A stretch of DNA of 64,000 bases from Styela clava. Lineage: Eukaryota; Chordata; Ascidiacea; Stolidobranchia; Styelidae. The notes beneath the pieces were generated by a model. That model was not told the DNA's origin and searched no databases. It saw only the letters and a program-made list of their open reading frames with translations. The stretch's first letter is position 1. Each line of letters begins with the position of its first letter. A program made the position numbers and the translations under genes. Of the stretch, positions 9,079 through 64,000 are shown in pieces. Where the stretch lies: positions 23,055,395 through 23,119,394 of the forward strand of contig NC_135250.1 in NCBI RefSeq assembly GCF_964204865.1, given 5' to 3'.

Positions 9079-10704
9079 ATGGAAGAAAAAATCAATACAG
9101 ATTCTAAAGAACATGCTGTTGAAATTTTACAACAATTAAATGAATATCGTAAAACTGGACGACATTGTGATTTCATGATCAAAGCTGGATCTGAGGAACT
9201 TTCTGTTCATAAGAATATTGTGTCGGCAAGTTCCGATTATTTTAAAGCAATGTTATCTCATGAAAATGTTGAAACAAAATCTGGTGTCGTTGAAATAAAG
9301 GAATTTGATGAAGTTTGTGTTAAAAAATGTGTTGATTTCATTTACACTGGGGATGCTTATGTTGCCAAAGAAAAACGTGAAACACTCATGGGTGTCGCTC
9401 ACATGATGCAGCTTCAAAGACTTTGTGATAGTATCGCAATTTTTCTGGAAGATGATCTTGATCCTACATCGTTTTTTCAAACTAAAAAAATTGCGAATAG
9501 GTACAACTGTAAACAACTTGAGGAAAAATGCAATCAATTTGCATTGCAACGTTTTATAGAAATTGCCCAGTCTGATGAGTTTATGGATCTTGATGAAAAA
9601 TTCATTTCATTTCTGATGGAATCAAAAGCAAAGGAAGAAGGGAAATGTAAGATGTTGTTAGCATGGACCAAACATGATATTGATGAAAGAAAAGAATGTT
9701 TTCTTAGTTTGGTGATGAAATTTCAATTGACAAAAATGACTTTGTCATATAGAAGATTTCTTGTTGAAAATGAACCATTAATACTTGAATCTGGAAAATC
9801 TCTCCAGTCATTGACTTTGTCAATTTTAGACAGTACTGGGAATGCCAAATCAAAAGATTTCAATTTCACAAAGAATAAACAGCTTGTTGTTTTTGACGAA
9901 ACTTCTCAAAGAATGCATTCTCATGATGTTGATGATAAAACATGGACACCAATGCAAACCATAGATCAAGCAATTATACAGAATTTATATTCTGCTGTAG
10001 TGATGGAATCTTACATTTATGTGATTTGTACGAATGGATCATTTCATAGACTTGAATATGCTGAATCAAATGCAAAGTGGGAACAAATGACAAATACAAA
10101 TCTTCAGAATGCACGTGCAGTTGCACTTGATGGTTTTGTTTATGGTATTGAGTATGAAAATGCTTCAAACATTATGGAAAGATATGACCCATCAAATAAT
10201 AGATGGACCAGACTAACAAACAAATCATTCATTCTAGTCTGTGAATCTTTGGTGGCTGCTAATGGAAAGGTGTTTTGTATTGCAGGATATAATCAGCAAT
10301 GTCGAGCAACAAACCAAGTTGAGATTTATGATCCGGTCACATCAACTTGGTCAATGGATAATAGATCATTGAATGAAGCAAGATATCGTGCTTCTGCAAC
10401 TGCTACAGAGGAAGGAATATATGTTATGGGAGGGTATGATGTTAATGGAAGATCAACTCTCACTACTGTTGAGTTTCGTTCATCTGTAACTGAAACCTGG
10501 ATGATGTTGAAACCAATGAAAAATGCAAGAGCACAGTTCAATAGTTGTGTAATTGATGGGAAAGTTTTTGTCATTGGTGGAAATAAAAATCCTGCAAATA
10601 TAGAGGAATATGATCCAGAAACAAAAGAATGGAAAATCATTGAAACAATACAAGGAAAAAGTATAACTCCACTGGCAACGGTTGCAATATCTATATGGCA
10701 TTAA
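9079..10704 (+). CDS. KLHL-1: BTB-BACK-Kelch protein, intact, 541 aa
   Basis: Predicted substrate adaptor of a Cullin-3 ubiquitin ligase: in this family BTB binds Cul3 and dimerises, and the kelch propeller binds the target. Visible domains are BTB at about residues 25-125 (HCDF, VHKNIVSASSDYFKAML), BACK at about 128-235, and six kelch-like blades from about 265 to the end (for example MERYDPSNNRW, VEIYDPVTSTW, IEEYDPETKEW). I chose the ATG at 9079 because every paralogue starts MEEKINTDSKEH; the in-frame extension upstream begins with TTG. It is one uninterrupted exon. Compared with its paralogues it lacks three residues after MESK in BACK and ends with an extra WH. Loop residues between blades differ from the other copies. 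The family assignment is secure; the target is unknown. Confidence 0.93.
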   Translation: MEEKINTDSKEHAVEILQQLNEYRKTGRHCDFMIKAGSEELSVHKNIVSASSDYFKAMLSHENVETKSGVVEIKEFDEVCVKKCVDFIYTGDAYVAKEKRETLMGVAHMMQLQRLCDSIAIFLEDDLDPTSFFQTKKIANRYNCKQLEEKCNQFALQRFIEIAQSDEFMDLDEKFISFLMESKAKEEGKCKMLLAWTKHDIDERKECFLSLVMKFQLTKMTLSYRRFLVENEPLILESGKSLQSLTLSILDSTGNAKSKDFNFTKNKQLVVFDETSQRMHSHDVDDKTWTPMQTIDQAIIQNLYSAVVMESYIYVICTNGSFHRLEYAESNAKWEQMTNTNLQNARAVALDGFVYGIEYENASNIMERYDPSNNRWTRLTNKSFILVCESLVAANGKVFCIAGYNQQCRATNQVEIYDPVTSTWSMDNRSLNEARYRASATATEEGIYVMGGYDVNGRSTLTTVEFRSSVTETWMMLKPMKNARAQFNSCVIDGKVFVIGGNKNPANIEEYDPETKEWKIIETIQGKSITPLATVAISIWH

Positions 10705-12631
10705 TTTTTCGTATACTTTGACAATTATGGCTCTCATAATCCTATTGAATATACCTATCAATTTTCTGATTTACTCTGAAATTAAATTTGTTTGCAGAAT
10801 TATGGATACCAGTAAATTAATATTTTGTGTGGTAATATTTTGATCGAATAATTCCTTCAATAGATTTAGCGTAAGAACAAATTTACGGAATGTTTGAGGA
10901 TATAGCTTGAATAATTTATCTTCACTGATAGTCAATATCAATATTGATTGCTGGGGTAGTTAATCATTAGCTATTTTATTCGGAAGTGACAAGTAAAAAT
11001 TACTTTCATATTGGTAGTGTTGATATTTTATTGTTTTTTTATATCATTGCATTTATTATGGTCAACAATTTAATCTCTAATTCTTGAAAATGTATCATTT
11101 TTTCAATATTTTATTCAATTTTGTGATATATCAGATTACAGAGGATTACCGTATATTATTTTTTATGGTTGGTATGTTATGGGTTGTTATCATATCTTTC
11201 TCATTAACTCGCATTATTTGTTTACGATGGGGCCTATCTGATTTTAGTTCCATACAAGAATTCAAGTTTTTTATTCTTATGATCCAGTAGGGGTTATTTA
11301 TATTAAAAGCACATTCCTTTGAAATCACTGTATTTTTCAATTATTATCATTCCACTGCTTTTTTGATATAACTAGTTCGAAGATATGCATGCGTTAATTA
11401 TTATTCATGCTTTTTATTCTTTGAGTAACTGACCAAAAAAATTGTGTTTTTGTAAATGGAACATTCAGGTTAGTGGCAATAAAGCTTTTATTACATGGCC
11501 CCTACTGCACAAATTGAGTTCTGTCCATCCAGTATCAAATTTTTGCTAATCTGTTATTACAAATAAATGAAAATACAAAACTTTTAGGTTTGGAGGAGTA
11601 GTGTTTATTCAGACATGTCTCAGTAATGACGTTACTGCTGATCACTGTTGTCCAATGCATTATTAGCATTTTGTATTTTTGAGGTGAGGCTCATTCCATA
11701 CCATCATCTGTATAACGTCATAACAGACTTGTTGTAGCCTTCTAGGTTGAGAACAATTATTCAACTTTTGATATTTCTATTCTGAACATGATGATGATGT
11801 TGAGAAATTTTCATTTTTGTGAATATCCTTTCAACCAATGAGGTCTGAAATATTATCATTTTTTATTGATTCCAATTCTTGATTAACAGACAATAAGCTC
11901 TGTAATAAAGGAAATATGATTTTATTGAATATTCTCGAAAATTTTATTATTGTAGTATATTCATATTGACTAATTCACTGAACTTGATAAAATATACTGT
12001 GTTAGTGAAATTGTCATTGTTATTTCGTTATGTATAAAAGGTAATAGGAGGAAATATAAATTTTCATCTTGATGCTTTTAGTTAATATTCTGACAAATTC
12101 CTACTGGCATTATTCATGTAATTTTTCAGGGTTGTAATTTGCAATATTGATATCATAATTAGATCAGCTGAGAAAGAAATTAAATATTATCTCATGGTCG
12201 CGGAGTTCCTGCTTGTCTTCATAACATGCTTGATTCGTCACTCAACAATTTGCCAGAAGATTGTTGAAGATGATTTGATGCATATTTTTGATAAAGTTTT
12301 ACGCAGACAACACATGTCATTATTGTTTGACATAAAGTGGAATTGATATCAGGCTGTGAAGTTCGCTGTTCAATAAACTCATTTTGATATTTGCTTAAAA
12401 CAGCTGTATTTCAAATGTCCTCGAGTTGGGTTCAAAATAGATTAATGGCTTGAACTTAAATTTTTTCATACCTAGAACACCAGTAGATAATCGAATTGTG
12501 AGAAAGTTTAAAAAGTGGAGTAGTTTTTAATTTTGATGGTGTCATCGCACACAAAAACTAAATACTAAAAAGCCAGCAGAAATATTTAAAATAAATGAAA
12601 GTGATAGACTTTTAGCGAAAAATACAATCTT
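10705..12631. repeat. 3' flank of KLHL-1 (flank type A)
   Basis: This is the downstream unit shared with KLHL-4 (36074-38370), the relic at 30921-31630 and, in pieces, KLHL-6. Shared landmarks are 'tttagc(g/t)taagaac', 'gataacaa/atcatatcttt', 'ataaagc(t/c)tttatta' and 'gaagatgatttgatgc'. Possible polyadenylation signals AATAAA lie near 11478, 11910 and 12370, but none can be preferred. No second gene is seen. Confidence 0.65.
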
Positions 12632-12705
12632 TAAAATCGTTCAGAGTGGAGAGCGATAGCTTATTTCCCTTAACCTACGTTAATCAGTAATCAGTAATTT
12701 ATTTC

Positions 12706-13951: not shown

Positions 13952-16900
13952 TCAACTGGATGTAGAGGCAGTGGAAAGGTAAAGGGAGCGCATGAATTTT
14001 TTGTATTTGAATTTGAAAGTGTCATAACTACAGTTACGTAAGTTTAAGGGAATATTATTCCAAGTTACCACACCTTTATATTTCAAGGAGTTTTGGGATT
14101 TGCTTAGAGAAAATCTGGGTACAAATAAATTAGACCTTGTCGAAGAGCGTGTGTTATGATCATGCACTTTACTGAGCGAAACAAAATAATCGTCGAAAGC
14201 AGCGGGCAAATGGTTGCTATGAAACTGATGCATGACCTTGGAAATCTCTAGTTGATAGATATCGGTTAATTTTAACACCCTGGTCTTATAGTATAGGGTG
14301 TTTAAGTTAGATCGAATGGGTGCTCTAGAGAGAATTCTAACTGCTCTATTTTGTAAAACTTCCAAACTGTGCAACGCTGATTGGGTGGCGGAGCCCCATG
14401 CAGTTATAGCATACTGTATATGAGACTGGAAAAGTGCGAAGTATATGGTTCGGAGAGTTGAGTCCTGGACGTAATGTCTGAGCTTACCCAGGATTCCAAC
14501 TGCTCTTGACAGTCTCTTATGCAGTTCAGTAGTATGAGTGTTCCAATTTAGTTTGTCGTCAATAAGTAGCCCAAGATATTTGAAAGAGTGGACAATTTCG
14601 AGTGTGACACCCCTGATTTTAATTGAAAAGTTTTCATGTCTGGTTCGAGTTTTAGGACCAAACAACATAACTTTAGATTTTTTAACATTCACAGTAAGTT
14701 TATTGCATACCATCCAATTATACACTTTGTTAATTTCAGTGTTCACCTCGGCTTGCAGTGAGATTAGATTCTTTGCACTGTCGAGCAGACAGGCATCATC
14801 GGCGAAGAGTTTGCTCAAGAAATTTGAACAATTTGAAAGATCGTTTATGAAGATTAAAAAATTCAAAGGTCCTAATACGCTACCTTGTGGAATTCCGTAA
14901 TGGATGGGTAATAACGAAGACCTGTGAGAATCTAACTCCACATATTGATAACGTCCGGACAGGTAATCATTTAATAACTTGCCTGCGACACCTCGAAAGC
15001 CAAAATATCTAAGTTTTTGAGAGAGAATAGCATGGTCGACAGTATCAAAAGCTTTTTTCAGATCTAAGAAAGTACAACAGACGAATTCCCCTTTGTCAAG
15101 TTTATCATAAATATATGAAGTTAAGTCCAAGATAGCGTGGCTGGTCGAGTGATTGCTTTGGAATCCAAATTGACATTTATTGATCAAGTTAAATTTTTTA
15201 CAAAAATTCAGCATTCGACTATGAATTAATTTTTCTAAAATGATGCCTAGGGAGGGTAAAATGGAAATTGGTCGGTAATTTGACGGGTCATTTCTTTTGC
15301 CATTTTTAAATATTGGTTTCACTCTGGCAATCTTTAACGATGAAGGAAAAATACCTAATTTAAAAGATGAGTTGAAAAAATGACACAGAGTTGGCGATAT
15401 GATATCAGCGACTTGTTTTAGAAAGTAAGTTGGAATACCATCTGGGCCAACTGCTTTTCCATTTTTCAGGTTCAATATGGTTTGAAGAATCTCTGTATGT
15501 GTCGTTGGCTCCAGGAAAAAGGTGTTTTGCAGCGGAACACCCAAAAAATCGGTAGAAGGGTTAGAGCTACCAGGGATGTTATTCGCAAGTTTCTTTCCTA
15601 CCGTTGAGAAGAATTCATTAAATTCACTGGCCATCATGATGGGGTCTGTCACTGTGGTACCATTTTCGAGTTTCAATTCTGAGATGGATGTATCATCTCT
15701 GGACTTAGTCTTAATGATCTCGTTAATAGTTTTCCAAGTTTGTTTGATATCTCCCCGGTTATTCTCGAGGGCATAGCGATAATGCAGTTGTTTCGATTTT
15801 CTCTGCAAGTGCATTAAGATATTTTTATATTTTTTGAAGTGGAGACGCTGAAGTGTATTACCTTTCAAAAAATTTTTTTTGAACATATTATTTTTGTGAA
15901 TGATGGACTTGCGAATTCCCTTAGTGATCCACGGTTTGGAGTATAATTTATTTTCTCTTCGTGATAGGGGTCTTAATGGAGCGTGTTTGTTTATTAACCA
16001 TTTCATTTGACCCAGGAAATCATCAAAAGAGCTATTGAAATTTTCTCTAGTAAGAGTAACACTCATGTAATTATTACACATTAATTCAATTTCAGATCTA
16101 AAAGAGTCGTTACAAAATTTAGTCATATCTCGCTTCATTCGGATCTTTGTTTTTGTGCCAATATTCATACCCGAAATTGTACACATTACTGGAAAGTGGT
16201 CGGTGAGATCGCTAAGTAAAATAAAGGATGAAGAACAATGGTTTATGGCGTTTGTATAAATATGATCGATGAGGGTTTGGGAGGATGGCGTGACTCGAGT
16301 AGGTTCTGTGATCAAAGGAAATACGAAATAGGACGTCAGCATATCTAAATAGTTGGTGGTGGATTTATCATGGGTGTTAAGTAGGTTGATATTAAAGTCA
16401 CCCAGAATCACAAATTTCCTTTTCGCCATTGCCAGCCCACCAAGAACACGAGCCATTGCTCCTGTGAATGATGGGATGTTACTTTTCGGATGTTTATAAA
16501 CTACACCAATTACTAGGCTCTGGTTGTTTGAGTTTTGTTTGACCTCAATCCACAAGTCTTCGCAGTTTGGAAATGCTAAGTTAAAATCTTGGATGATTTG
16601 GTAATCTAAATTTTTTCTGAGGTAAAATCCCACGCCTCCAGCTTGGGTTGGGGTGGGAACATGAATAAACGCGTACCCCGGGATATCGATATTTACAAAC
16701 GTGGCTCCATGAATGATTCTGGTCTCACTCAGGGCAATTATATGAGGGAGAACATGAAAATGAGATATTAATTCGATAAGGTTGTCAGCATATCTTGGCA
16801 GTGACCTGATGTTGAAATGCACTAAAATGAGATCAGAGGGTGGAAAGCTGGATGAGACCTCGTTGATCTCATTAATTTGGAGGTGCCGACATGGTGGTAA

Positions 16901-21781: not shown

Positions 21782-23410
21782 ATGGAAGAAAAAATCAATA
21801 CAGATTCTAAAGAACATGCTGTTGAAATTTTACAACAATTAAATGAATATCGTAAAACTGGACGTCATTGTGATTTCATGATCAAAGCTGGATCTGAGGA
21901 ACTTCCTGTTCATAAGAATATTGTGTCGGCGAGTTCCGATTATTTTAAAGCAATGTTATCTCATGAAAATGTTGAAACAAAATCTGGTGTCGTTGAAATA
22001 AAGGGATTTGATGAAGTTTGTGTTAAAAAATGTGTTGATTTCATTTACACTGGGGATGCTTATGTTGCCAAAGAAAAACGTGAAACACTAATGGGTGTCG
22101 CTCACATGATGCAGCTGCAAAGACTTTGTGATAGTATCGCAATTTTTCTGGAAGATGATCTTGATCCTAGATCGTTTTTCCAAACTAGAAAAATTGCAAA
22201 TAGGTACAACTGTAAACAACTTGAGGAAAAATGCAATCAATTTGCATTGCAACGTTTTATAGAAATTGCCCAGTTTGATGAGTTTATGGATCTTGATACA
22301 AAATTTATTTCATTTTTGATGGAATCGAAGGAAACAAAAGCAAGGGAAGAAGGGAAATGTAAGGTGTTGTTAGCATGGACCAAACATGATATTGATGAAA
22401 GAAAGAAATGTTTTCTTAGTTTGGTGATGAAATTCCAGTTGACAAAAATGACTTTGTCATATAGAAGATTTCTTGTTGAAAATGAGCCACTGTTATATGA
22501 ATCTATGCAGTCAATTCGTTCAATGACTTTATCAATCTTGGACAGCAATGGGAATGCAGGTTCAAAAGATTTCAATTTAATTCAGAATCAACAGCTGGTT
22601 GTTTTTGATCAGACTTCCAAAAGAATGCATTGTCATGATGTTGATGATAAAACATGGACACCAATGCAAACCATAGATCAAGCAATTATACAGAATACAT
22701 TATATTCTGCTGTAGTGATGGAATCTTACATTTACGTGATTTGTACAAATGGATCGTTTTACAGACTTGAATATGCTGAATCAAATGCAAAGTGGGAACA
22801 AATGACAAATACAAATCTTCAGAATGCATGTGTAGTTGCACTTGATGGTTTTGTTTATGGTATCGAGGATGGAAATTTCTCAAACGTTATGGAAAGATAT
22901 GATCCATCAAATAATAGATATACCAGACTAACAAACAAATCATTGATTCTGGCTCATGAATCTTTGGTGGTCGCTGATGGAAAAGTGTTTTGTATTGTAG
23001 GAAGGAATCAACAGGGTCGAGCAACAAACCAAGTTGAGATTTATGATCCTGTCACATCAACTTGGTCAATGGATAATAGATCATTGAATGAAGCAAGATG
23101 GCACGCTACAGCAACTGCTACAGAGGAAGGAATATATGTTATGGGAGGTTATAATGATAGTAGGAATACTAGTAATACTGTTGAATATCGTTCATCTGTA
23201 ACTAAAACTTGGATGATATTGAAACCAATGAAAACGACAAGGCAATGGTTCAGTAGTTGTGTGATTCATGGGAAAGTTTATGTCATTGGTGGAAATGGAA
23301 ATCCCGCAAATATAGAGGAATATGATCCAGAAACAAAAGAATGGAAAATCATTGAAACAATACAAGGAAAAAATATTTATTCAAGTTCGACTGTTGCAAT
23401 ATCTGTATGA
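21782..23410 (+). CDS. KLHL-2: BTB-BACK-Kelch protein, intact, 542 aa
   Basis: Single-exon paralogue of KLHL-1 with the same BTB (about 25-125), BACK (about 128-235) and six-blade kelch layout. It is the most divergent intact copy in the propeller. It has VVALDG where the others mostly have AVALDG, IEDGNFSNV in the blade-3 loop, GRNQQGRAT in the blade-4 loop, EARWHATAT before blade 5 and NDSRNTSNT in the blade-5 loop. The stop is TGA, and the C-terminus is SSSTVAISV instead of PLATVAIS. Expected to act in the cytoplasm or nucleus as a Cul3 adaptor; substrate unknown. The upstream region is shared with KLHL-7 and KLHL-8. Confidence 0.93.
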   Translation: MEEKINTDSKEHAVEILQQLNEYRKTGRHCDFMIKAGSEELPVHKNIVSASSDYFKAMLSHENVETKSGVVEIKGFDEVCVKKCVDFIYTGDAYVAKEKRETLMGVAHMMQLQRLCDSIAIFLEDDLDPRSFFQTRKIANRYNCKQLEEKCNQFALQRFIEIAQFDEFMDLDTKFISFLMESKETKAREEGKCKVLLAWTKHDIDERKKCFLSLVMKFQLTKMTLSYRRFLVENEPLLYESMQSIRSMTLSILDSNGNAGSKDFNLIQNQQLVVFDQTSKRMHCHDVDDKTWTPMQTIDQAIIQNTLYSAVVMESYIYVICTNGSFYRLEYAESNAKWEQMTNTNLQNACVVALDGFVYGIEDGNFSNVMERYDPSNNRYTRLTNKSLILAHESLVVADGKVFCIVGRNQQGRATNQVEIYDPVTSTWSMDNRSLNEARWHATATATEEGIYVMGGYNDSRNTSNTVEYRSSVTKTWMILKPMKTTRQWFSSCVIHGKVYVIGGNGNPANIEEYDPETKEWKIIETIQGKNIYSSSTVAISV

Positions 23411-33597: not shown

Positions 33598-36073
33598 ATG
33601 GAAGAAAAAATCAATACAGATTCTAAAGAACATGCTGTTGAAATTTTACAACAATTAAATGAATATCGTAAAACGGGACGTCATTGTGATTTCATGATCA
33701 AAGCTGGATCTGAGGAACTTCCTGTTCATAAGAATATTGTGTCGGCAAGTTCCGATTATTTTAAAGCAATGTTATCTCATGAAAATGTTGAAACAAAATC
33801 TGGTGTCGTTGAAATAAAGGAATTTGATGAAGTTTGTGTTAAAAAATGTGTTGATTTCATTTACACAGGGGATGTTTATGTTGCCAAAGAAAAACGTGAA
33901 ACACTCATGGGTGTCGCTCACATGATGCAGCTGCAAAGACTTTGTGATAGTATCGCAAATTTTCTGGAAGGTGATCTTGATCCTAGATCGTTTTTTCAAA
34001 CTAAAAAAATTGCGAATAGGTACAACTGTGAACAACTTGAGGAAAAATGCAATCAATTTGCATTGCAACGTTTTAAAGAAATTGCCCAGTCTGATGAGTT
34101 GGATGGATCTTGATGAAAAATTCATTTCATTTCTGATGGAATCAAAGGAAATGAAAGAAAGGGAAGAAGTGAAATGTAAGATGTTGTTAGCATGGACCAA
34201 ACATGATATTGATGAAAGAAAAGAATGTTTTCTTAGTTTGGTGATGAAATTTCAGTTGACAAAAATGACTTTGTCATATAGACTCTATAATGGTCGGCAA
34301 CCACCGGGCCGCGGCCCATCGTCGGTCCGCGGAAAGGTTACTACCGGTCTGCAGAGAGGTGACACAGAAACGGACAAGGCCCTAATGACGCCTCTACAAT
34401 CTAACCACATACTACACAATCAAAAAAGCACTAAACCAGACAAACATAACGCATTTCAGCAGCATGTCTGACTTCACAAACAATTCCCATGTCATTATGT
34501 CGCATTGACGCTGGGCCAATTGTTCCCTCAACGCCCGTATAAGAAAGTCTCACATCAGTCGGCATAAGATCTCTCGAACAAAATGATTCTCGCTAGGAAC
34601 GTGACTAGTGACTACTCCACTACTTGCTCATAGCTAACCGGTCATGACTAGTCAGTGCTAATTCTATACTTCAGGAATCAGGATAATCATAAGTTAACAC
34701 ATCGGGTAAAAAATTAGTTATGGCAAAACAAACAATAGTAAAATCAAATATTCAATCAAACATCAATCAATACCCAGACTAGAGACAGGAGGTTTACAGG
34801 CATTGTTACTTATTCCACCATCTTATTAATGTGAGGCCTGGTTTCAATATTGATAACTACAAAAAAGGAAATATCGAAGTAGGCTGTATGAAACACGTTA
34901 CATGTGTCGATGTCGACCATATCTCCAATATTGGAACAGTTAATTGCCAACCAATAATTACAGATCTCGCATTAAATAGCATGGCTTTCGTTTTTTCAGT
35001 ATATTATTAACATAAGTTTCTTAACGTGTAGAATTTATTGCATAAACTTAGTTCGTTTGTATAAAAGGTGGTCCGCCAAAATTTTCGCCAGGGTTTACCG
35101 GTCCGTCACTTAAAAAAGGTTGCCGACCATTGATATAGACGATTTCTTGTTGAAAAGGAGCCACTGTTATTTGAATCTATGCAGTGTATTCGGTCACTGA
35201 CTTTATCAATACTGGACAGCCATCCTGAGAATATCAGTTCAAAAGATTTCAATTTAACAGAGAACAAACAGCTTGTTGTTTTTGACAAAACTTCTCAAAG
35301 AATGCATTCTCTTGATGTTTATGATAAAACATGGACACCAATGCAAACCATAGATCAAGCAAATATACAGAATACATTGCATTCTGCTGTAGTGACGGAA
35401 TCTTACATTTATGTGAGATTTGTAGCAATAGATTATTTTATAGACTTGAATTTGCTGAATCCAATGCAAAGTGGGAACAAATGACAAATACAAATCTTAA
35501 GTATGCGTGTGCAGTTGCACTCGATGGTTTTGTTTATGGTATTGAATATGGAAAGCACTCAAATATTATGGAAAAATATGATCCACCAAATAATAGATGG
35601 ACCAGACTTACGAACAAATCATTGATTCTAGCTTGGGAACATTTGGTGGCTGCTGATGGAAAGGTGTTTTGTGTTGCAGGAACAAACCTACAAGGTCGAG
35701 CAACAAACCAAGCTGAGATTCACGATCCTGTCACATCAACTTGGTCAATGGATCATTGAATGAAACAAGATATCAAGCAACTGCTACAGAGGAAGGAATA
35801 TATGTTATGGGAGGCTATGATACAAAATCAAATCTCACTACTGTTGAATTTCGTTCATCTGTAACTAAAACCTGGATGATGTTGGAACCAATGAAAACTG
35901 CAAGACATTATTTCAGTAGTTGTGTGATTAATGACAAAGTTTATGCCATTGGTGGAAATGGAAATCCTGCAAATATAGAGGAATATGATCCCGAAACAAA
36001 AGAATGGAAAATCATTGAAACAATACAAGGAAAAAATCTAATTCCGCTGGCAACTATTGCAATATCTATGTAG
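33598..36073 (+). pseudogene. KLHL-4: disrupted BTB-BACK-Kelch pseudogene
   Basis: The start and BTB domain (33598-34113) match the intact copies, but at least four lesions follow. (1) The same +1 insertion as KLHL-3, with TGA at 34111-34113. (2) An 849 bp hAT-like insertion at 34284-35132 within the BACK coding region, with an 8 bp duplication. (3) A 2 nt insertion near 35414 ('tgtgagattt' for 'tgtgattt'). (4) A 7 nt deletion near 35750 ('caatggatcattg'). There is also a 6 nt in-frame loss before blade 5. Kelch blades remain readable in alternating frames to TAG at 36071-36073. Not expected to yield a full protein; a 171-residue BTB product is conceivable. Confidence 0.93.
34284..35132. mobile_element. 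hAT-like element inside KLHL-4, 849 bp
   Basis: An 8 bp direct repeat 'atatagac' lies at 34276-34283 and 35133-35140, and removing one copy plus the insert gives the intact paralogue sequence. The ends share 'aatggtcggcaacc' in inverted orientation. Subterminal sequence is rich in 'ggtccgc'/'gcggcc'. No transposase is seen. Confidence 0.85.
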
Positions 36074-37469
36074 CTTCATTTACTCTTATACTTTGACAAT
36101 TATGGCTCTCATAATCTTATTGAATATACCTATCAATTTTCTGATTTACTCTGAAATTAAATTTGTTTGCTGAATTATTGAAACTAGTAAATTAATCATT
36201 TGTGTGGTAATATTCAGATTGAATACCGGTAATTCCTTTGACAACATTTTTTTTATTACCGTATTTATCTTCAATACATTTAGCTTAAGAACGAATTCAC
36301 AGAATGTTTGAAGATATAGCTTGAATATATTCTCTTTATAGATAACCAATATCAATATTGATAATCCGATTGTTTGGTTAGTTAATCATTACCTATTTTA
36401 ATTGGAAGTGACAACTGAAAATTAACTTCATATTGGTAGCGTTGATATTATATAATTTTTTTTATGTCATTTTATTTATTATGGTCTACAATTTATTCTC
36501 TAATTCTTAAAAATGTATCATTTTTCAATATTTTATTCAATTTTGTGATATGACATCTTACAGGGGCTTACCCTACATTATTTTTTCATGGTTGGTATCA
36601 TATGGGTTGTTATCATATCTTTCTTATTAACCTGATGGGGCCTATCTGATTTTAATTCCATACAATAAATTAAGTTTTTCATCTTCATGACCCAGTGGGG
36701 GTTATTTATACCAAATGCTCATTCCTTCGAAATCACTGTTTTATTTTTATTTTCATCATTTCACTGCTTTTTTGATATAATTACCTAGTTCGAAAATATG
36801 CATTTTCTAAATGCGGTAAACATTATTCTTGCTTTTTATTCTTGGAATAACTGATCAAAAATAAATGTGTTTTTGTAAATGAAATATTTAGGTTAGTGAC
36901 AGTAAAGCCTTTATGGCCCCTGTTGCACAAATTGGGTTCGGTCCATCCAATATCAAATTTTTGCAATTTTTTTTTTTTTACAAATAGAAGAAAATACAAA
37001 ACTCTTGGATCACTGATGTGTGTTGTCCAATGCATTATTAGTGTTTTGTATTTTTGAGGTGAGGCTCATTTCATACCATCATCTGTATAACGTCATAACA
37101 GACTTGTTGTGGCCTTCTAGGCTAAGAACAGTTGTTCAACTTTTAATATTCCTATTCTGAAAATGATGATGTTGAGACATTTTCATTTTTGGTATTAATA
37201 TCTTTGCAACCAATGAGGCATGAAATCATATTGTTATTCATTGATTTCAATTCCTGATTAACAGACAATAAGTTCTGTAATAAAGGAAATATAATTTTAT
37301 TGAATATTCTCGAAAATTTTATTATTGTAGTATATTGATATTGACTAATTCAGTGAACTTGATAAAATATAGAATTGTTATTATGTTATGTATAAAAGGT
37401 GCTAGACAGAAATATAAATTTTCATTTTGATGTTTGTAGTTAATCTTCTGACAAATTCTTACTGGCATT
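36074..37469. repeat. 3' flank of KLHL-4 (flank type A)
   Basis: Paralogous to 10705-12110 over its length. No gene is seen. Confidence 0.65.
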
Positions 37470-45310: not shown

Positions 45311-46936
45311 ATGGAAGAAAAAATCAATACGAATTCTAAAGAACATGCTTTTGAAATTTTACAGCAATTAAACGAATATCGTAAAACGGGACGTCATTGT
45401 GATTTCATGATCAAAGCTGGATCTGAGGAACTTCCTGTTCATAAGAATATTGTGTCGGCAAGTTCCGATTATTTTAAAGCAATGTTATCTCATGAAAATG
45501 TTGAAACAAAATCTGGTGTTGTTGAGATAAAGGAATTTGATGAAGTTTGTGTTAAAAAATGTGTTGATTTCATTTACACTGGGGATGCTTATGTTGCCAA
45601 AGAAAAACGTGAAACACTCATGGGTGTCGCTCATATGATGCAGCTGCAAAGACTTTGTGATAGTATCGCATTTTTTCTGGAAGATGATCTTGATCCTAGA
45701 TCGTTTTTTCAAACTAAAAAAATTGCGAATAGGTACCACTGTAAACAACTTGAGGAAAAATGCAATCAATTTGCATTGCAACGTTTCAAAGAAATTGCCC
45801 AGTCTGATGAGTTCATAGATCTTGACGAAAAATTTATTTCATTTCTGATGGAATCAAAGGAAACAAAAGCAAAGGAAGAAGTGAAATGTAAGGTGTTGTT
45901 AGCATGGACCAAACATGATATTGATGAAAGAAAAGAATGTTTTCTCAGTTTGGTGATGAAATTTCAGTTGACAAAAATGGCTTTGTCATATAGACGATTT
46001 CTTGTTGAAAATGAACCACTGTTATTCGAATCTATGCAGTCTATTCGTTCACTGACTTTATCAATCCTGGACAGCAATAAGAATATCAGTTCAAAAGATG
46101 TTAATTTGACAGAGAATAAACAGCTTGTTGTTTTTGACGAAACTTCTCAAAGAATGCATTCTCATGATGTTTATGATAAAACATGGACACCAATGCAAAC
46201 CATGGATCAAGCAATTATACAGAATACATTATATTCTGCTGTAGTGATGGAATCTTACATTTATGTGATTTGTAAAAAGGGATCGTTTTATAGACTTGAA
46301 TATGCTGAATCAAATGCAAAGTGGGAACAAATGACAAATACAAATCTTCAGTATGCATATGCAGTTGCACTTGATGGTTTTGTTCATGGTTTTGAATATC
46401 AGAGGCACTCAAACATTATGGAAAGATATGATCCATCAAATAATAGATGGACCAGACTAACAAACAAATCATTGATTCTATATGGAGAATCTTTGGTGGC
46501 TGCTGATGGAAAGGTGTTTTGTATTGCAGGAATGAATCAGCAAATTCGAGCAACAAACCAAGTTGAGATTTATGATCCTGTCACATCAACTTGGTCTATG
46601 GATAATAGATCATTGAATGAAGCAAGATATCAAGCTTCTGCAACTGCTACAGAGGAAGGAATATATGTTATGGGAGGTAAAAATGTTAATAGTAATACTA
46701 ATAGTGTTGAATTTCGTTCATCTGTAACTAAAACCTGGATGATGTTGAAACCAATGAAAACTGCAAGAGCACAGTTCAGTAGTTGTGTGATTGATGAAAA
46801 AGTTTATGTCATTGGCAGAAATGGAAATTCTGCAAATATAGAGGAATATGATCCTGCAACAAAAGAATGGAAAGTCATTGAAACAATACAAGGGAAAAAT
46901 ATAGTTACGATGGCAACTGTTGCAATATCTATATAA
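45311..46936 (+). CDS. KLHL-5: BTB-BACK-Kelch protein, intact, 541 aa
   Basis: Intact single exon with the family's BTB, BACK and six blades. Distinguishing N-terminal changes are few (KINTNSKEHAFE, RYHCKQ). Propeller loops differ: CKKGSF in blade 2, HGFEYQRHSN in blade 3, ILYGES before blade 4, GMNQQIRAT in blade 4, YQASAT before blade 5, GKNVNSNTN in blade 5, and IGRNGNSAN where the others have IGGNGNPAN. The glycine-to-arginine change replaces part of a conserved GG doublet of blade 6. The upstream leader block is eroded, so its expression may differ from the other copies. Cul3-adaptor role inferred from family. Confidence 0.93.
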   Translation: MEEKINTNSKEHAFEILQQLNEYRKTGRHCDFMIKAGSEELPVHKNIVSASSDYFKAMLSHENVETKSGVVEIKEFDEVCVKKCVDFIYTGDAYVAKEKRETLMGVAHMMQLQRLCDSIAFFLEDDLDPRSFFQTKKIANRYHCKQLEEKCNQFALQRFKEIAQSDEFIDLDEKFISFLMESKETKAKEEVKCKVLLAWTKHDIDERKECFLSLVMKFQLTKMALSYRRFLVENEPLLFESMQSIRSLTLSILDSNKNISSKDVNLTENKQLVVFDETSQRMHSHDVYDKTWTPMQTMDQAIIQNTLYSAVVMESYIYVICKKGSFYRLEYAESNAKWEQMTNTNLQYAYAVALDGFVHGFEYQRHSNIMERYDPSNNRWTRLTNKSLILYGESLVAADGKVFCIAGMNQQIRATNQVEIYDPVTSTWSMDNRSLNEARYQASATATEEGIYVMGGKNVNSNTNSVEFRSSVTKTWMMLKPMKTARAQFSSCVIDEKVYVIGRNGNSANIEEYDPATKEWKVIETIQGKNIVTMATVAISI

Positions 46937-51842: not shown

Positions 51843-53477
51843 ATGGAAGAAAAAATCAATACAGATTCTAAAGAACATGCTGTTGAAATTTTACAACAAT
51901 TAAATGAATATCGTAAAACTGGACGTCATTGTGATTTCATGATCAAAGCTGGATCTGAGGAACTTCCTGTTCATAAGAATATTGTGTCGGCAAGTTCAGA
52001 TTATTTTAAAGCAATGTTATCTCATGAAAATGTTGAAACAAAATCTGGTGTCGTTGAAATAAAGGAATTTGATGAAGTTTGTGTTAAAAAATGTGTTGAT
52101 TTCATTTACACTGGGGATGCTTATGTTGCCAAAGAAAAACGTGAAACACTCATGGGTGTCGCTCACATGATGCAGCTGCAAAGACTTTGTGATAGTATCG
52201 CAATTTTTCTGGAAGATGATCTTGATCCTAGATCGTTTTTTCAAACTAAAAAAATTGCGAATAGGTACAACTGTAAACTACTTGAGGAAAAATGCAATCA
52301 ATTTGCATTGCAACGTTTCAAAGAAATTGCTCAGTCTGATGAGTTTATGGATCTCGATGAAAAATTTATTTCATTCCTGATCGAATCAAAGGAAACAAAA
52401 GCACAGGAAGAAGGGAAATGTAAGATGTTGTTAGCATGGACCAAACATGATATTGATGAAAGAAAAGAATGTTTTGTTAGTTTGGTGATGAAATTTCAGT
52501 TGACGAAAATGACTTTGTCATATAGAAGATTTCTCGTTGAAAATGAACCATTGATATTTGAATCTATGCAGTCTCTTCGTTCACTGACTTTATCAATACT
52601 GGACAGCCATCCTGAGGATATCAGTTCAAAAGATTTCGATTTAACAGAGAATAAACAGCTTGTCGTTTTTGACCGAATTTCTCAAGGAATGCATTCACAT
52701 GATGTTGGTGATAAAACATGGACGCCAATGCAAACCATAGATCAAGCAATTATACAGAATTTATATTCTGCTGTAGTGATGAAATCTTATATTTATGTGA
52801 TTTGTACAAATGGATCGTTTTATAGACTCGAATATGCTGAATCAAATGCAAAGTGGGAACAAATGGCAAATACTAATATCCATAATGCTTGTGCAGTTGC
52901 ACTTGATGGCTTTGTTTATGGCATTGATTATGGAGATCACTCAAACATTATGGAAAAATATGATCCATCAAACAATAGATGGACCAGACTTACGAACAAA
53001 TCACTGATTCTGGTCTATGAATCTTTGGTGGCTGCTGATGGAAAGGTGTTTTGTATTGCAGGATATACTGGTCAGCAACTTCAAGCAACAAAGCAAGTTG
53101 AGATTTATGATCCTGTCACATCAACTTGGTCAATGGATAATAGATCATTGAATAAAGCAAGATGCCGTGCTTCTGCTACAGCTACAGAGGAAGGAATATA
53201 TATTATGGGAGGTTATAATGTTAATAGAAACTCAACTGTTGCTACTGCTGAATTTCGTTCATCTGTAACTAAAACCTGGATGATGCTGAAACCAATGAAA
53301 AATGCAAGAGCAGAGTTCAGTAGTTATGTGATTGATGGGAAAGTGTACGTCATTGGTGGAAATAGAAAACCCACAAATATAGAGGAATATGATCCGGAAA
53401 CAAAAAAATGGAGAATCATTGAAACAATACAAGGAAAAAACATATTTTTATTGGCAACTGTTGCAATATTTCTATAG
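51843..53477 (+). CDS. KLHL-6: BTB-BACK-Kelch protein, intact, 544 aa
   Basis: The longest intact copy, a single exon ending in TAG at 53475-53477. BTB and BACK are nearly those of the paralogues. Loop differences include FDRISQGMHSHDVG in blade 1, NTNIHNACAV, GIDYGDHSN in blade 3, ILVYES, GYTGQQLQATKQ in blade 4 (one residue longer), ARCRAS, NVNRNSTVAT in blade 5 and ARAEFSSYV, where a conserved cysteine is tyrosine. The stop codon lies inside the target duplication of the hAT-like element that follows immediately, so the native 3' UTR has been displaced by about 390 bp. Cul3-adaptor role inferred. Confidence 0.93.
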   Translation: MEEKINTDSKEHAVEILQQLNEYRKTGRHCDFMIKAGSEELPVHKNIVSASSDYFKAMLSHENVETKSGVVEIKEFDEVCVKKCVDFIYTGDAYVAKEKRETLMGVAHMMQLQRLCDSIAIFLEDDLDPRSFFQTKKIANRYNCKLLEEKCNQFALQRFKEIAQSDEFMDLDEKFISFLIESKETKAQEEGKCKMLLAWTKHDIDERKECFVSLVMKFQLTKMTLSYRRFLVENEPLIFESMQSLRSLTLSILDSHPEDISSKDFDLTENKQLVVFDRISQGMHSHDVGDKTWTPMQTIDQAIIQNLYSAVVMKSYIYVICTNGSFYRLEYAESNAKWEQMANTNIHNACAVALDGFVYGIDYGDHSNIMEKYDPSNNRWTRLTNKSLILVYESLVAADGKVFCIAGYTGQQLQATKQVEIYDPVTSTWSMDNRSLNKARCRASATATEEGIYIMGGYNVNRNSTVATAEFRSSVTKTWMMLKPMKNARAEFSSYVIDGKVYVIGGNRKPTNIEEYDPETKKWRIIETIQGKNIFLLATVAIFL

Positions 53478-57060: not shown

Positions 57061-57231
57061 TGGCACTGGTTTGGGAGTTGTGTGATTGATGAGAAAGTTT
57101 ATGTCGTTGGTGGAAATGGAAATCCTGCAAATATAGAGGAATATGATCCGGAAACAAAACAATGGAAAATCATTGAAACAATACAAGGAAAAAATATTTT
57201 TCCAAGAGCAACTGTTGTAATATCTATATAA
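57061..57231 (+). pseudogene. Relic of a KLHL last kelch blade
   Basis: Fifty-six codons ending in TAA at 57229-57231 encode blade 6 and the C-terminus (HWFGSCVIDEKVYVVGGNG, IEEYDPETKQWKII, NIFPRATVVISI). It is closest to KLHL-3 (HWFGSCVID, NIFPRATVAISI). The 5' part is missing and replaced by flank sequence. This is the scar of a deleted array member. Confidence 0.85.
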
Positions 57232-58429
57232 CATTGATTGATCTTATTTCTGAATTCTGAGCAAATATGTCTCTCATATGCTATACTGAAAATCCCTGTA
57301 AACATATCTAGTTTTTTCCCAAATTAATTTTTATCACAAAATGATAACCTATGGTAACTTTTTGTTCATCATAATTCTCAACCAAATAATTAAACGGTAT
57401 CAACTATTTTTTCATTTCATCTTGTGTTCCAGTGTTGTATTTTACCGTAATTACCGGTAGCTTAATGAAGTTTATTAAATTTATCTATCTATCTAGAATC
57501 TGATTGACAATTTGATTGGCTTGACTGCTTGAATATTACCCAATATTATTAAGAAGTTGTTGTACGAATCTTATAACTAGTTTATCATTTTCCCTATTTT
57601 ATTATTATAATATCAAATTGGTAATGATCAAGCTTTTAATTTAATATTTTTTGACATTTTCCATTTTTTATTATCATTCAATTTTGTGACATGCCCTAAT
57701 GATGGTGTTTCAATTTTTATTGATGAATTATGGTTTCATAATTTGAAATCCTTTCATTCACACTGCCCTAATTGTTTTTGAAAAATTCTAGTTGATGTTA
57801 GTTCAATACAACAATTCATACAACAAGATTTTCAGCATTTGATAAGAAACGGCTTTATTGTATTTAATAATCATTTCCTCTAGTGAAAATTACTGTATTT
57901 TTTTAATTTTATAATCACTGCTTTCTCAATATAATCAATTCCCTAATATGCATTTTTAAATGGGATAATTGTTATCTATGCTTTTTATTCATGAAATGAC
58001 TGTTCAATAGATTTGTTGTTATGAATTATAATATTCAGGCTAGTGACCTTACCAAGGGGCCATTCCAAACAAATGTTGAATTTCATCAATTTTATAAAGT
58101 GCAATGAAAGTACCGTAATTGTTTTGTATTTTTTATATCAAAAGACACTTGAATTTTATTGGACTGCATTCATTTCATGGAAAAAGTTGGAATTCCACCC
58201 AGGTTTTTGATGGTTTACACAAAAGGGCCTGAAATGTAGAAATTTTGATATGATTGACATTTTTTGTGATGACTCGTAACACAAAGTGTTTGATTGTCTG
58301 GTACAGTTATTTCTTTTCAAATATATGCACTGGACTTGAAAGTTAATAAAGATTAGGTGTTTGCAGTGCTGTAGGACATGTCTTTGCCTATTTAACGATT
58401 TATTGTTAGAATTTTGATAGATGATAGAG

Positions 58430-59032: not shown

Positions 59033-59100
59033 GGTATTATTATTAATAGTGGTATAATCATAAGCAGTTCTTTATAAAATCAAATAAAGTCATCTCAGAA
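59033..59100 (+). promoter_or_regulatory. Conserved leader block before KLHL-7 ATG
   Basis: Same as 63086-63153 and close to 21714-21781. It is preceded by 'gttattctacaag', a weak acceptor-like site. Confidence 0.4.
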
Positions 59101-60729
59101 ATGGAAGAAAAAATCAATACAGATTCTAAAGAACATGCTGTTGAAATTTTACAACAATTAAATGAATATCGTAAAACTGGACGTCATTGTGATTTCATGA
59201 TCAAAGCTGGATCTGTGGAACTTCCTGTTCATAAAAATATTGTGTCGGCAAGTTCCGATTATTTTAAAGCAATGTTATCTCATGAAAATGTTGAAACAAA
59301 ATCTGGTGTCGTTGAAATAAAGGAATTTGATGAAGTTTGTGTTAAAAAATGTGTTGATTTCATTTACACTGGGGATGCTTATTTTGCCAAAGAAAAACGT
59401 GAAACACTCATGGGTGTCGCTCACATGATGCAGCTGCAAAGACTTTGTGATAGTATCGCAATTTTTCTGGAAGACGATCTTGATCCTAGATCGTTTTTTC
59501 AAACTAAAAAAATTGCGAATAGGTACAACTGTAAACAACTTGAGGAAAAATGCAATCAATTTGCATTGCAACGTTTTATAAAAATTGCACAGTCTGATGA
59601 GTTTATGGATCTTGATGAAAAATTTATTTCATTTCTAATGGAATCAAAGAAAACAAAAGCAAAGGAAGAAGTGAAATGTAAGATGTTGTTAGCATGGACC
59701 AAACATGATATTGATGAAAGAAAAGAATGTTTTCTTGGTTTGGTGATGAAATTTCAGTTGGCAAAAATGACTTTGTCATATAGGAGATTTCTTGTGGAAA
59801 ATGAACCACTGATATTTGAATCCGCAAAATCTCTTCAGTCATTGACTTTGTCAGTTTTTGACAGCCATGGGGATATCAGTTCAAAAGATGTCAATTTGGC
59901 AGAGAATAAACAGCTTGTTGTTTTTGACAAAACTTCTGGAAGAATGCATTCATGTGATGTTGATGATAAAACATGGACACCAATGCAAACCATAGATCAA
60001 GCAATTATACAGAATACATTATATTCTGCTGTAGTGATGGAAACTTACATTTATGTAATTTGTACAAAAGGATCGTTTTATAGACTTGAATATGCTGAAT
60101 CAAATGCAAAGTGGAAACAAATGGCAAATGCAAATCTTCAGAATGCTTCTGCAGTTGCACTTGATGGTTTTGTTTATGGTATTGAGTATGAAAAATACTC
60201 AAGCATTGTGGAAAGATATGATCCATCAAATAATAGATGGACCAGACTAACAAACAAATCTTTGATTCTGGCTTGTGAACTTTTGGTGGCTGCTGATGGA
60301 AAGGTGTTTTGTATTGCAGGTATAAATCAACAAGATCAAGCAACAAACCAAGTTGAGATTTATGATCCTGTCACATCAACTTGGTCAATGGATAATAGAT
60401 CATTGAATGAAGTAAGATATTGTGCTTCTGCAACAGCAACAGAAGAAGGAATATATGTTATGGGAGGTTATAATGTTAATGGTAATACTACTAATAGTGT
60501 TGAATTTCGTTCATCTGTAACTAAAACCTGGATGATATTGAAACCAATGAAAAATGCAAGACAAAACTTCAGTAGTTGTGTGATTGATGAGAAAGTTTAT
60601 GTCATTGGTGGAAATGGAAATCCTGCAAATATAGAGGAATATGATCCTGAAACAAAAGAATGGAAAATTATTGAAACCATTCAAGGAAAAAATGTAACTC
60701 CACTGGCTACTGTTGCATTATTTATGTAA
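59101..60729 (+). CDS. KLHL-7: BTB-BACK-Kelch protein, intact, 542 aa
   Basis: Single exon with BTB at 25-125, BACK at 128-235, and six blades at about 269-298, 308-340, 350-385, 394-430, 441-478 and 490-523. Diagnostic residues are SVELPVH and DAYFAKE in BTB (the others have SEELPVH and DAYVAKE) and QLAKMTL in BACK. Loops read KTSGRMHSCDVDD, YEKYSSIV, INQQDQAT, VRYCASAT, NVNGNTTNS and ARQNFSS. Blade 5 and blade 6 keep the GG doublets. It heads the youngest tandem pair of the array; KLHL-8 matches it over all 847 bases visible. Cul3-adaptor role inferred from family; substrate unknown. Confidence 0.93.
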   Translation: MEEKINTDSKEHAVEILQQLNEYRKTGRHCDFMIKAGSVELPVHKNIVSASSDYFKAMLSHENVETKSGVVEIKEFDEVCVKKCVDFIYTGDAYFAKEKRETLMGVAHMMQLQRLCDSIAIFLEDDLDPRSFFQTKKIANRYNCKQLEEKCNQFALQRFIKIAQSDEFMDLDEKFISFLMESKKTKAKEEVKCKMLLAWTKHDIDERKECFLGLVMKFQLAKMTLSYRRFLVENEPLIFESAKSLQSLTLSVFDSHGDISSKDVNLAENKQLVVFDKTSGRMHSCDVDDKTWTPMQTIDQAIIQNTLYSAVVMETYIYVICTKGSFYRLEYAESNAKWKQMANANLQNASAVALDGFVYGIEYEKYSSIVERYDPSNNRWTRLTNKSLILACELLVAADGKVFCIAGINQQDQATNQVEIYDPVTSTWSMDNRSLNEVRYCASATATEEGIYVMGGYNVNGNTTNSVEFRSSVTKTWMILKPMKNARQNFSSCVIDEKVYVIGGNGNPANIEEYDPETKEWKIIETIQGKNVTPLATVALFM

Positions 60730-61292
60730 CATTGACTCTTATCAGTTGCTATAACCTTTGTGGCAATATTTATTCCTATTATTCATCAACTAAAATTTGA
60801 CTTCGAAAAGTTGATTTAAATTCATTATGCTTAAATTAGTATCTATCTAATTTTCTATTAAATTTTTTTTACCGAATAAATCTCTATTTCGAATACATAC
60901 AAAATTATTATTTTCGAATATGAAATTTCGAATACATGCAAAAATAAATGTAAGTAAAATAGCATATTTTAGGGCATGAAGGAATCTGCATAAAACAAAC
61001 AATGGAATAACTGTTATCTACAACCTGTCTATTTACCAGACATTTTATGTCCATCGATTGCCTGATATTTTCGAGTAGTATTGCTTTTCATATTTCAGTA
61101 GGTACGAAAATATGAATCAAAAATTGATAATAATCGGGCAGTTTACTACACATTTTATGTCCGCAGATTGCCACTGTTTTTTAGAGTATAGTAATTCCTT
61201 CTGTTTTCCCGTAAGTACGAAACTTCGGATCAGAAATTAATTATAATCGGCAGTTTTCCACACATTTTATGCCCGCAGACTGCTCCGTATTT
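60730..61292. mobile_element. Truncated hAT-like relic after KLHL-7
   Basis: From about 60873 the sequence has the 'tttcgaatac' words and then 'cagtttaccacacatttt' repeats of the 6113-8360 family. The right end is missing: it stops at 61292, where the second duplication unit begins. No gene is seen. Confidence 0.65.
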
Positions 61293-62482
61293 TGATCTTA
61301 TTTCTGAATTCTGAGCAAATATGTCTCTCATATGCTATACTGAAAATCCCTGTAAACATATCTAGTTTTTTCCCAAATTAATTTTTATCACAAAATGATA
61401 ACCTATGGTAACTTTTTGTTCATCATAATTCTCAACCAAATAATTAAACGGTATCAACTATTTTTTCATTTCATCTTGTGTTCCAGTGTTGTATTTTACC
61501 GTAATTACCGGTAGCTTAATGAAGTTTATTAAATTTATCTATCTATCTAGAATCTGATTGACAATTTGATTGGCTTGACTGCTTGAATATTACCCAATAT
61601 TATTAAGAAGTTGTTGTACGAATCTTATAACTAGTTTATCATTTTCCCTATTTTATTATTATAATATCAAATTGGTAATGATCAAGCTTTTAATTTAATA
61701 TTTTTTGACATTTTCCATTTTTTATTATCATTCAATTTTGTGACATGCCCTAATGATGGTGTTTCAATTTTTATTGATGAATTATGGTTTCATAATTTGA
61801 AATCCTTTCATTCACACTGCCCTAATTGTTTTTGAAAAATTCTAGTTGATGTTAGTTCAATACAACAATTCATACAACAAGATTTTCAGCATTTGATAAG
61901 AAACGGCTTTATTGTATTTAATAATCATTTCCTCTAGTGAAAATTACTGTATTTTTTTAATTTTATAATCACTGCTTTCTCAATATAATCAATTCCCTAA
62001 TATGCATTTTTAAATGGGATAATTGTTATCTATGCTTTTTATTCATGAAATGACTGTTCAATAGATTTGTTGTTATGAATTATAATATTCAGGCTAGTGA
62101 CCTTACCAAGGGGCCATTCCAAACAAATGTTGAATTTCATCAATTTTATAAAGTGCAATGAAAGTACCGTAATTGTTTTGTATTTTTTATATCAAAAGAC
62201 ACTTGAATTTTATTGGACTGCATTCATTTCATGGAAAAAGTTGGAATTCCACCCAGGTTTTTGATGGTTTACACAAAAGGGCCTGAAATGTAGAAATTTT
62301 GATATGATTGACATTTTTTTGATGACTCGTAACACAAAGTGTTTGATTGTCTGGTACAGTTATTTCTTTTCAAATATATGCACTGGACTTGAAAGTTAAT
62401 AAAGATTAGGTGTTTGCAGTGCTGTAGGACATGTCTTTGCCTATTTAACGATTTATTGTTAGAATTTTGATAGATGATAGAG

Positions 62483-62790
62483 GCCGCTGTTCCGAAGCGG
62501 AAGACTATAAAGTGGAAAAATGTCCCATAGTGTCACATACAATGTGCACATTATCGTCATGGATCTACAGTGTTACATTGAGTTACTTGAGTGACACATA
62601 GACGGGTCCTCCAGTCACTGCTCAGAAAATATTGCTGTACCAGCTCGACAATCGTTCAAACCATATAAAACAATTGATTGAACAGTGGAGCAAAACATAT
62701 TGCTGGAGATGTAAAAATATTGGATCTCTCAGCGTGGAAATTTTCTGGAATTATCCTGTAGAGTCACTTGGATTAGCTCTTATATTCTTT
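62483..62790 (+). pseudogene. Tc1/mariner-like transposase relic in unit 2
   Basis: Copy of the relic at 58430-58740. One visible difference turns 'tcaggaat' into 'tctggaat'. Confidence 0.5.
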
Positions 62791-63153
62791 ATCTTCCAAT
62801 TCATACTTACCGGTACTTCACTATACAATACTTTTTGGAGGTTTTTCATCATGCTGTGATTTGTTGAAATTGTCTTTACAACAATTTGATACATATTAAG
62901 CAGACAATATTTGACTTCATTCTTTACATAGCTTCAGAAGTGCGATTGTGTACTTATTTGATCCGGCATTGCCTTTCAGTATAATTTAATTTTTTTTTAT
63001 TGTAATCATTGTTTTATGAACCAAGGTTTATTTGGGATGAACTGTAAAGTCTAACACCTTCAATTATAATTCCGTTATTCTACAAGGTATTATTATTAAT
63101 AGTGGTATAATCATAAGCAGTTCTTTATAAAATCAAATAAAGTCATCTCAGAA

Positions 63154-64000
63154 ATGGAAGAAAAAATCAATACAGATTCTAAAGAACATGCTGTTGAAAT
63201 TTTACAACAATTAAATGAATATCGTAAAACTGGACGTCATTGTGATTTCATGATCAAAGCTGGATCTGTGGAACTTCCTGTTCATAAAAATATTGTGTCG
63301 GCAAGTTCCGATTATTTTAAAGCAATGTTATCTCATGAAAATGTTGAAACAAAATCTGGTGTCGTTGAAATAAAGGAATTTGATGAAGTTTGTGTTAAAA
63401 AATGTGTTGATTTCATTTACACTGGGGATGCTTATTTTGCCAAAGAAAAACGTGAAACACTCATGGGTGTCGCTCACATGATGCAGCTGCAAAGACTTTG
63501 TGATAGTATCGCAATTTTTCTGGAAGACGATCTTGATCCTAGATCGTTTTTTCAAACTAAAAAAATTGCGAATAGGTACAACTGTAAACAACTTGAGGAA
63601 AAATGCAATCAATTTGCATTGCAACGTTTTATAAAAATTGCACAGTCTGATGAGTTTATGGATCTTGATGAAAAATTTATTTCATTTCTAATGGAATCAA
63701 AGAAAACAAAAGCAAAGGAAGAAGTGAAATGTAAGATGTTGTTAGCATGGACCAAACATGATATTGATGAAAGAAAAGAATGTTTTCTTGGTTTGGTGAT
63801 GAAATTTCAGTTGGCAAAAATGACTTTGTCATATAGGAGATTTCTTGTGGAAAATGAACCACTGATATTTGAATCCGCAAAATCTCTTCAGTCATTGACT
63901 TTGTCAGTTTTTGACAGCCATGGGGATATCAGTTCAAAAGATGTCAATTTGGCAGAGAATAAACAGCTTGTTGTTTTTGACAAAACTTCTGGAAGAATGC
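63154..64000 (+). CDS. KLHL-8: BTB-BACK-Kelch protein, 5' part, cut by window edge
   Basis: The first 282 codons (BTB, BACK, entry into blade 1) are open and, as far as I compared, the same as KLHL-7, including the SVELPVH and DAYFAKE signatures. The start matches all paralogues. Whether the propeller remains the same lies outside the window. It may be a very young duplicate, or an assembly artefact such as an uncollapsed haplotype. Confidence 0.9.
   Translation, partial: MEEKINTDSKEHAVEILQQLNEYRKTGRHCDFMIKAGSVELPVHKNIVSASSDYFKAMLSHENVETKSGVVEIKEFDEVCVKKCVDFIYTGDAYFAKEKRETLMGVAHMMQLQRLCDSIAIFLEDDLDPRSFFQTKKIANRYNCKQLEEKCNQFALQRFIKIAQSDEFMDLDEKFISFLMESKKTKAKEEVKCKMLLAWTKHDIDERKECFLGLVMKFQLAKMTLSYRRFLVENEPLIFESAKSLQSLTLSVFDSHGDISSKDVNLAENKQLVVFDKTSGRM

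Follow-up and report, generated by a model that had tools for sequence, protein, structure and literature searches.

The window analysed here, 64,000 nucleotides of Styela clava (contig NC_135250.1, positions 23,055,395 to 23,119,394), carries part of a tandem array of BTB-BACK-Kelch genes, in which a near-identical BTB-BACK chassis is followed by a variable Kelch propeller. Open reading frame (ORF) translations and self-comparison place eight copies in the window, all on the forward strand. An earlier interpretation, made from the letters alone (hereafter the sequence-only reading), had described at least eight same-strand copies; strand and number hold, but g3 and g4 are broken, so that not all eight are intact genes. 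The loop strings quoted in that reading are found in the translations when compared by eye, and the EAR motif that it placed before a variable residue pair is present in most copies and replaced by KAR or EVR in two. The copies and the parts of g6, whose codons serve as the numbering reference, are as follows.

9079..10704, + strand: g1 (L030), intact BTB-BACK-Kelch ORF, 541 amino acids (aa)
21782..23410, + strand: g2 (L015), intact, 542 aa
27205..28834, + strand: g3 (L037), broken by a BACK-domain frameshift common to g3 and g4
33598..36080, + strand: g4 (L036), broken by the frameshift of g3, by an insertion of ~850 bases and by other lesions; the position of its 3' end is approximate
45311..46936, + strand: g5 (L026), intact, 541 aa
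51843..53477, + strand: g6 (L009), intact, 544 aa
51843..52538, + strand: g6 chassis (BTB and BACK), codons 1-232
52539..52652, + strand: g6 linker, codons 233-270, with the peak of synonymous divergence
52653..53474, + strand: g6 six-bladed propeller (predicted), codons 271-544
52929..52949, + strand: g6 blade 3 BC loop, codons 363-369; selected sites 364 and 366
53058..53099, + strand: g6 blade 4 BC loop, codons 406-419; selected sites 408, 413 and 414
53208..53246, + strand: g6 blade 5 BC loop, codons 456-468; selected sites 462-464 and 466
57076..57331, + strand: 3'-terminal fragment left from another copy, next to the duplicated segments 57238-59947 and 61292-64000
59101..60729, + strand: g7 (L027), intact, 542 aa
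63154..64000, + strand: g8 (L028), leaving the window; intact in the genome, 540 aa; a recent duplicate of g7

A search of the 376.6 Mb genome assembly with the first 240 residues extends the array to 32 copies that hold at least part of the chassis. They span ~285 kb of contig C1, all on the + strand, with starts running from C1:23,019,491 to 23,304,130 at a median spacing of 7.5 kb. Thirty copies were fetched as loci, and 22 of these have intact ORFs of 537-546 residues, while eight have none. Pfam BTB, BACK and Kelch_1 score above cut-off, in that order, in g6 and g1, the two copies scanned. Among the best-scoring candidates of the genome search, the closest match outside the array is 48% identical for the chassis and 33% for the propeller; in this one genome, the array is a tandem expansion far from its best-scoring outside matches.

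Positive selection acts in the putative substrate-binding domain of these proteins and is absent from the part expected to face the ligase. Site models were fitted with our own Python code rather than PAML, with FastTree branch proportions held fixed. The model fits and loop counts use 21 genes, L028 having been dropped as a near-duplicate of L027; synonymous and nonsynonymous rates (dS and dN), segment distances, pairwise differences and residue lists use 22. When each third of the propeller is given its own tree, model M8 improves on M7 by 222 and on M8a by 208 in twice the log-likelihood difference, with 10% of sites at a dN/dS ratio (omega) of 4.4; with ten trees the corresponding gains are 97.5 and 87. 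The chassis shows a gain of 0, and no site class there has an omega above 1.

The selected sites fall mainly on one face of the predicted structure. AlphaFold2, applied to five window copies, gave a good model of the propeller and a poor one of the chassis (predicted local distance difference test mostly <50). KLHL12, Keap1 and other Kelch domains align with the propeller model over ~260 residues, and the model predicts six Kelch blades, with a C-terminal strand closing the propeller. Loop borders, taken from the model's DSSP string after the alignment had been viewed, assign 102 codons to BC and DA loops (the top face), 40 to AB and CD loops (the other face) and 132 to strands. In Keap1, according to an excerpted account, the substrate is held by the BC/DA face of the propeller (PMC4668279). 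Sixteen of the 18 sites with a posterior >0.9 among codons 271-544 in the three-tree fit lie in BC or DA loops (odds ratio 15.8, p 4e-6), as do 12 of 14 in the ten-tree fit. The string of top-face residues is unique to each of the 21 genes; considered singly, BC3 has 17 distinct strings and BC4 and BC5 have 21 each, the latter two loops also containing indels.

Could the omega signal be an artefact of gene conversion, loop misalignment or biased conversion? Recombination in the array is strong, BC4 and BC5 are the loops with indels, and recombination inflates the M8 test; for this reason, a null was simulated with a separate tree every 10 codons. In 24 simulated sets without positive selection, the likelihood-ratio test (LRT) statistic had a median of ~6 and reached its maximum of 47 in one set; the real data, fitted in the same way, gave 209. 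With codons within 3 of a gap removed, the LRT is 83, to be set beside a null simulated for the full data only, and 12 of 13 sites still lie in top loops. GC-biased conversion was considered as a source of loop changes and rejected: third-position GC content in the loops is 0.162, and the share of weak-to-strong (W-S) variants is not raised there. An artefact of this kind is, in our opinion, highly improbable. The expectations of the sequence-only reading concerning omega in propeller and chassis, and the position of the variable sites on the substrate face, are thus borne out, the former surviving both simulated recombination and the removal of gap-adjacent codons.

Tree-free counts, in which the proportion of nonsynonymous differences (pN) is divided by the synonymous proportion (pS) of the propeller, give 1.60 (1.19-2.17) for BC loops, 0.92 for DA loops and 1.22 (0.93-1.62) for both combined. 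The corresponding values are 0.32 for opposite-face loops, 0.21 for CD loops alone and 0.37 for strands. These figures bear on the view that the loops are unconstrained, redundant tandem copies being free to drift as long as the framework and chassis are preserved. The pooled DA value near 1 agrees with drift, as do the tolerance of indels in loops and the 10 of 32 copies that look broken (eight by the ORF check, two from search listings). Relaxation alone, however, cannot yield an omega of 3-4.4 at a tenth of sites, and a BC-loop ratio with a lower bound of 1.19 beside 0.32 for the opposite face is likewise contrary to it. We therefore consider drift as the whole explanation quite unlikely.

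The copies have mosaic histories. Pairwise distances in ten segments of the gene are nearly uncorrelated (Spearman -0.21 to 0.42), and a permutation test resembling the pairwise homoplasy index (PHI) returned 0/1000 with 5 and with 15 neighbours and 6/1000 with 30. For the propeller, three trees are better than one by 292 log-likelihood units; a single-tree history is thus rejected by both PHI and likelihood. Four-gamete incompatibility shows a modest excess only (0.355 vs 0.258-0.328 in 30 one-tree simulations), and the range of the one-tree simulations includes the values for sites separated by <30 bases (incompatibility 0.265, r2 0.084). An individual case is provided by L024 and L025, located 50 kb apart, which differ at 8 positions through codon 450 and at 39 beyond it, 30 of the latter falling in codons 451-505; no exact donor for the divergent segment was found among the copies in hand. 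Distances in the upstream 260 bases correlate with those of BTB at 0.29, and with those of BACK, linker and propeller at 0.04, 0.00 and -0.04, respectively. Blades are, as judged from these comparisons, evidently shuffled between copies. The possibility that silent propeller cassettes are stored elsewhere in the genome was considered and rejected: among the best 135 of 266 candidates, the best outside match over the whole propeller is 33% identical, and the higher identities (up to 48%) are confined to stretches of ~40-110 residues with expectation values (E) of 1e-14 or weaker.

Exchange between copies may also account for part of the uniformity of the chassis. Pooled over 22 genes, L028 included, dS and dN are 0.080 and 0.013 in BTB, 0.148 and 0.032 in BACK, 0.108 and 0.021 in the whole chassis (codons 1-232; omega ~0.2), 0.745 and 0.185 in linker codons 233-262, and 0.158 and 0.101 in the propeller. 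Linker dS thus exceeds the values for BTB, BACK and propeller by a factor of roughly five to nine, in matching codons of all intact copies, and the 5' flank shows a raw divergence of 0.16-0.25 in a gapped alignment. Copies that had aged together without exchange would be expected to show a level dS along the gene. The valley of chassis dS between the 5' flank and the linker therefore points to homogenisation, probably by gene conversion, on top of constraint. The sequence-only reading attributed the fixed chassis to selection, which agrees with the low omega and leaves out the contribution of homogenisation that the low dS suggests.

It should be noted that the putative ligase-facing part departs from the phi-x-E motif of Cullin-3 (Cul3) receptors in its first residue. 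The phi-x-E motif contacts Cul3, its phi residue burying most surface on Cul3 in the excerpted account (PMC3616122). In the array, N63-V64-E65 aligns with M-S-E of KLHL3 and F-S-E of KLHL11. The glutamate is retained, and phi, where a large hydrophobic residue is expected of a Cul3 receptor, is Asn in all 22 intact genes. This substitution is what would be expected if the proteins worked as Kelch scaffolds without recruiting a cullin, their diversified face binding partners for another purpose. On the other hand, the BTB-BACK regions of KLHL3 (residues 11-221, E 8e-26) and KLHL11 (residues 9-227, E 3e-16) both align with the chassis, and Ala57, Met58 and Glu65, which correspond to A77, M78 and E85 of KLHL3, are invariant in 22/22 genes. 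Cul3 binding by the array products is plausible on these alignments, and a scaffold role without a cullin seems to us unlikely.

Taken as a whole, the array is, in our judgement, probably a diversified repertoire of BTB-BACK-Kelch substrate receptors that work inside the cell, most probably for a Cullin-3 ubiquitin ligase; the sequence-only reading, which proposed much the same, is partly supported. In such a repertoire, all intact copies would share one chassis and each would carry its own set of BC/DA loops; each expressed product would bind a different target, or variant of a target, and send it to ubiquitination and degradation. Positive selection on the loops would maintain this diversity, and tandem duplication and gene conversion would renew it, the latter also homogenising the chassis. 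The targets would presumably be proteins that change quickly, whether they belong to parasites, viruses or mobile elements or to a mating partner.

Reproduction, rather than defence, might be the setting of this repertoire, whether through gamete recognition, through sexual conflict or through proteins of the sperm or egg. Reproductive proteins often show the kind of selection seen in the loops. The termite Zootermopsis nevadensis has 37 BTB-BACK-Kelch (KLHL10) genes vs 10 in another termite, with a link to male fertility, as stated in excerpts of the genome account (PMC4348803). No pointer to the gonad was noticed in the sequence, which speaks against a reproductive role, and we regard this alternative as rather doubtful, though deserving of attention.

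Several observations weigh against a repertoire of receptors diversified on one face, in addition to the broken copies and the loss of the hydrophobic phi residue already mentioned. Two selected sites of the propeller lie off the top face, 499 in an AB turn on the opposite face and 491 at the start of a strand, and sites 265 and 269, ahead of the first strand, also exceed 0.9 in the three-tree fit. AB loops alone, with 11 codons, have a pN/pS of 0.61 (0.30-1.12), so that the quiet opposite face rests chiefly on the CD loops. A site above 0.9 occurs in 9 of 12 top loops; DA2-3 peaks at 0.85, and in BC6 and DA1-2 every site is at 0.5 or below. The sister genes, finally, give a weak replicate of loop diversification. 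Three sister sets were used, of 7, 8 and 3 genes; L042 was removed from set C17A as an apparent duplicate of L039, and L043, close to L040, was also removed for the site model, which was fitted to C17A and C17B and not to the three genes of C18. L047, L048, L049, L057, L058, L060, L061 and L069 were left out as truncated or outlying, and L070 served in the alignment as a bridge only. The contrast between top and bottom loops is significant in one of the three sets (p 0.40, 0.013 and 0.16). Propeller LRTs of 7.1 (C17A) and 23.9 (C17B) are within the range of the recombination null, and the chassis gives 5.9 and 4.2.

Other BTB arrays are present in the assembly. A sister BTB-Kelch array at C17:4.43-4.77 Mb (L039-L061) occupies both strands, its chassis being 36-45% identical to that of the C1 array. 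Further large BTB arrays lie at C5:2.78-4.80 Mb and C6:21.81-22.55 Mb (L062-L065), with at least 28 and at least 16 BTB matches, respectively, by hand count among the 150 matches listed; the two members scanned from them match BTB and, in two places, BACK, but not Kelch.

Within the window, the tandem duplication that produced g8 (57238-59947 / 61292-64000) has a 4.05 kb unit, is 99.9% identical and is very recent. The coding regions of g7 and g8 show 0 differences over aligned bases, yet the proteins have 542 and 540 residues. The insertion in g4 (34283-35132) carries perfect terminal inverted repeats of 14 bases (34289-34302 / 35118-35131) and, read by eye, one 8-base motif flanking it on each side. 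It looks like a non-autonomous DNA transposon, presumably hAT-like. A non-LTR (long terminal repeat) retrotransposon occupies 13952-18184 on the - strand, with ORF1 (Baculo_FP_2nd) and ORF2 (endonuclease, reverse transcriptase) both open, and an inverted repeat of ~600 bases (378-973 / 4387-4982; 96% identical, 3.4 kb apart) lies upstream of g1. No structural RNA was detected in the window at Rfam gathering scores, and no transfer RNA by ARAGORN. Searches of the assembly returned neither a COX1 match nor an arthropod cuticle domain (PF00379), the second being a weak negative, since its control gave no hit either.

A more specific form of the receptor repertoire can be put forward as a tentative possibility: a repertoire of degron receptors encoded in the germline, renewed by recombination and acting inside the cell as paralogue dimers, in which gene conversion would shuffle blades and selection would retain new loop sets. 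BTB is near-identical in intact copies (dN 0.013), so any two products could pair. If paralogues pair freely, 22 genes would be enough for as many as 253 dimeric ligases, in most of which the two pockets would differ, and the array would be an inside-cell, target-destroying counterpart of a variable receptor family. The site-level evidence suggests, more generally, that strong selection can diversify the pocket of a Kelch ligase receptor with the part that faces the ligase remaining constant. Should the targets be proteins of pathogens or selfish elements, the family is ready for use in finding such targets and offers a route to the loop residues that set degron specificity, which bears on the design of targeted protein degraders.

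By analogy, the nearest precedent would be the nematode MATH-BTB and F-box adapter families, in which selection on the substrate-binding domain was reportedly described by Thomas in 2006. The C1 array differs in that its binding module is a predicted six-bladed Kelch propeller, with blades apparently shuffled, and in that its copies form one single-strand array of 285 kb with a near-identical chassis. The nematode families have been proposed to target foreign proteins, and excerpts report that genes of these families are induced and that parts of the SCF (Skp1-Cullin-F-box) ligase play a role in infection (PMC4063957). The termite KLHL10 expansion shares its domain order with the C1 array; its account, in the excerpts available, gives gene counts and the fertility link, with neither loop selection nor shuffling. 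In the excerpts of openly licensed literature considered, we recognised no account of loop-diversified KLHL arrays.

The C1 array resembles Keap1, KLHL3 and KLHL12 in BTB-BACK-Kelch order, predicted propeller fold and BC/DA substrate face. Known KLHL proteins are mostly conserved single genes, whereas the top face of the C1 array differs in each of 21 genes and the phi residue is lost. A constant frame, variable contact sites and mosaic copies are features that the array has in common with the conversion-renewed genes of the major histocompatibility complex (MHC), the var genes and sea urchin 185/333. Those systems act at or outside the cell surface, whereas the products of the C1 array should act inside the cell.

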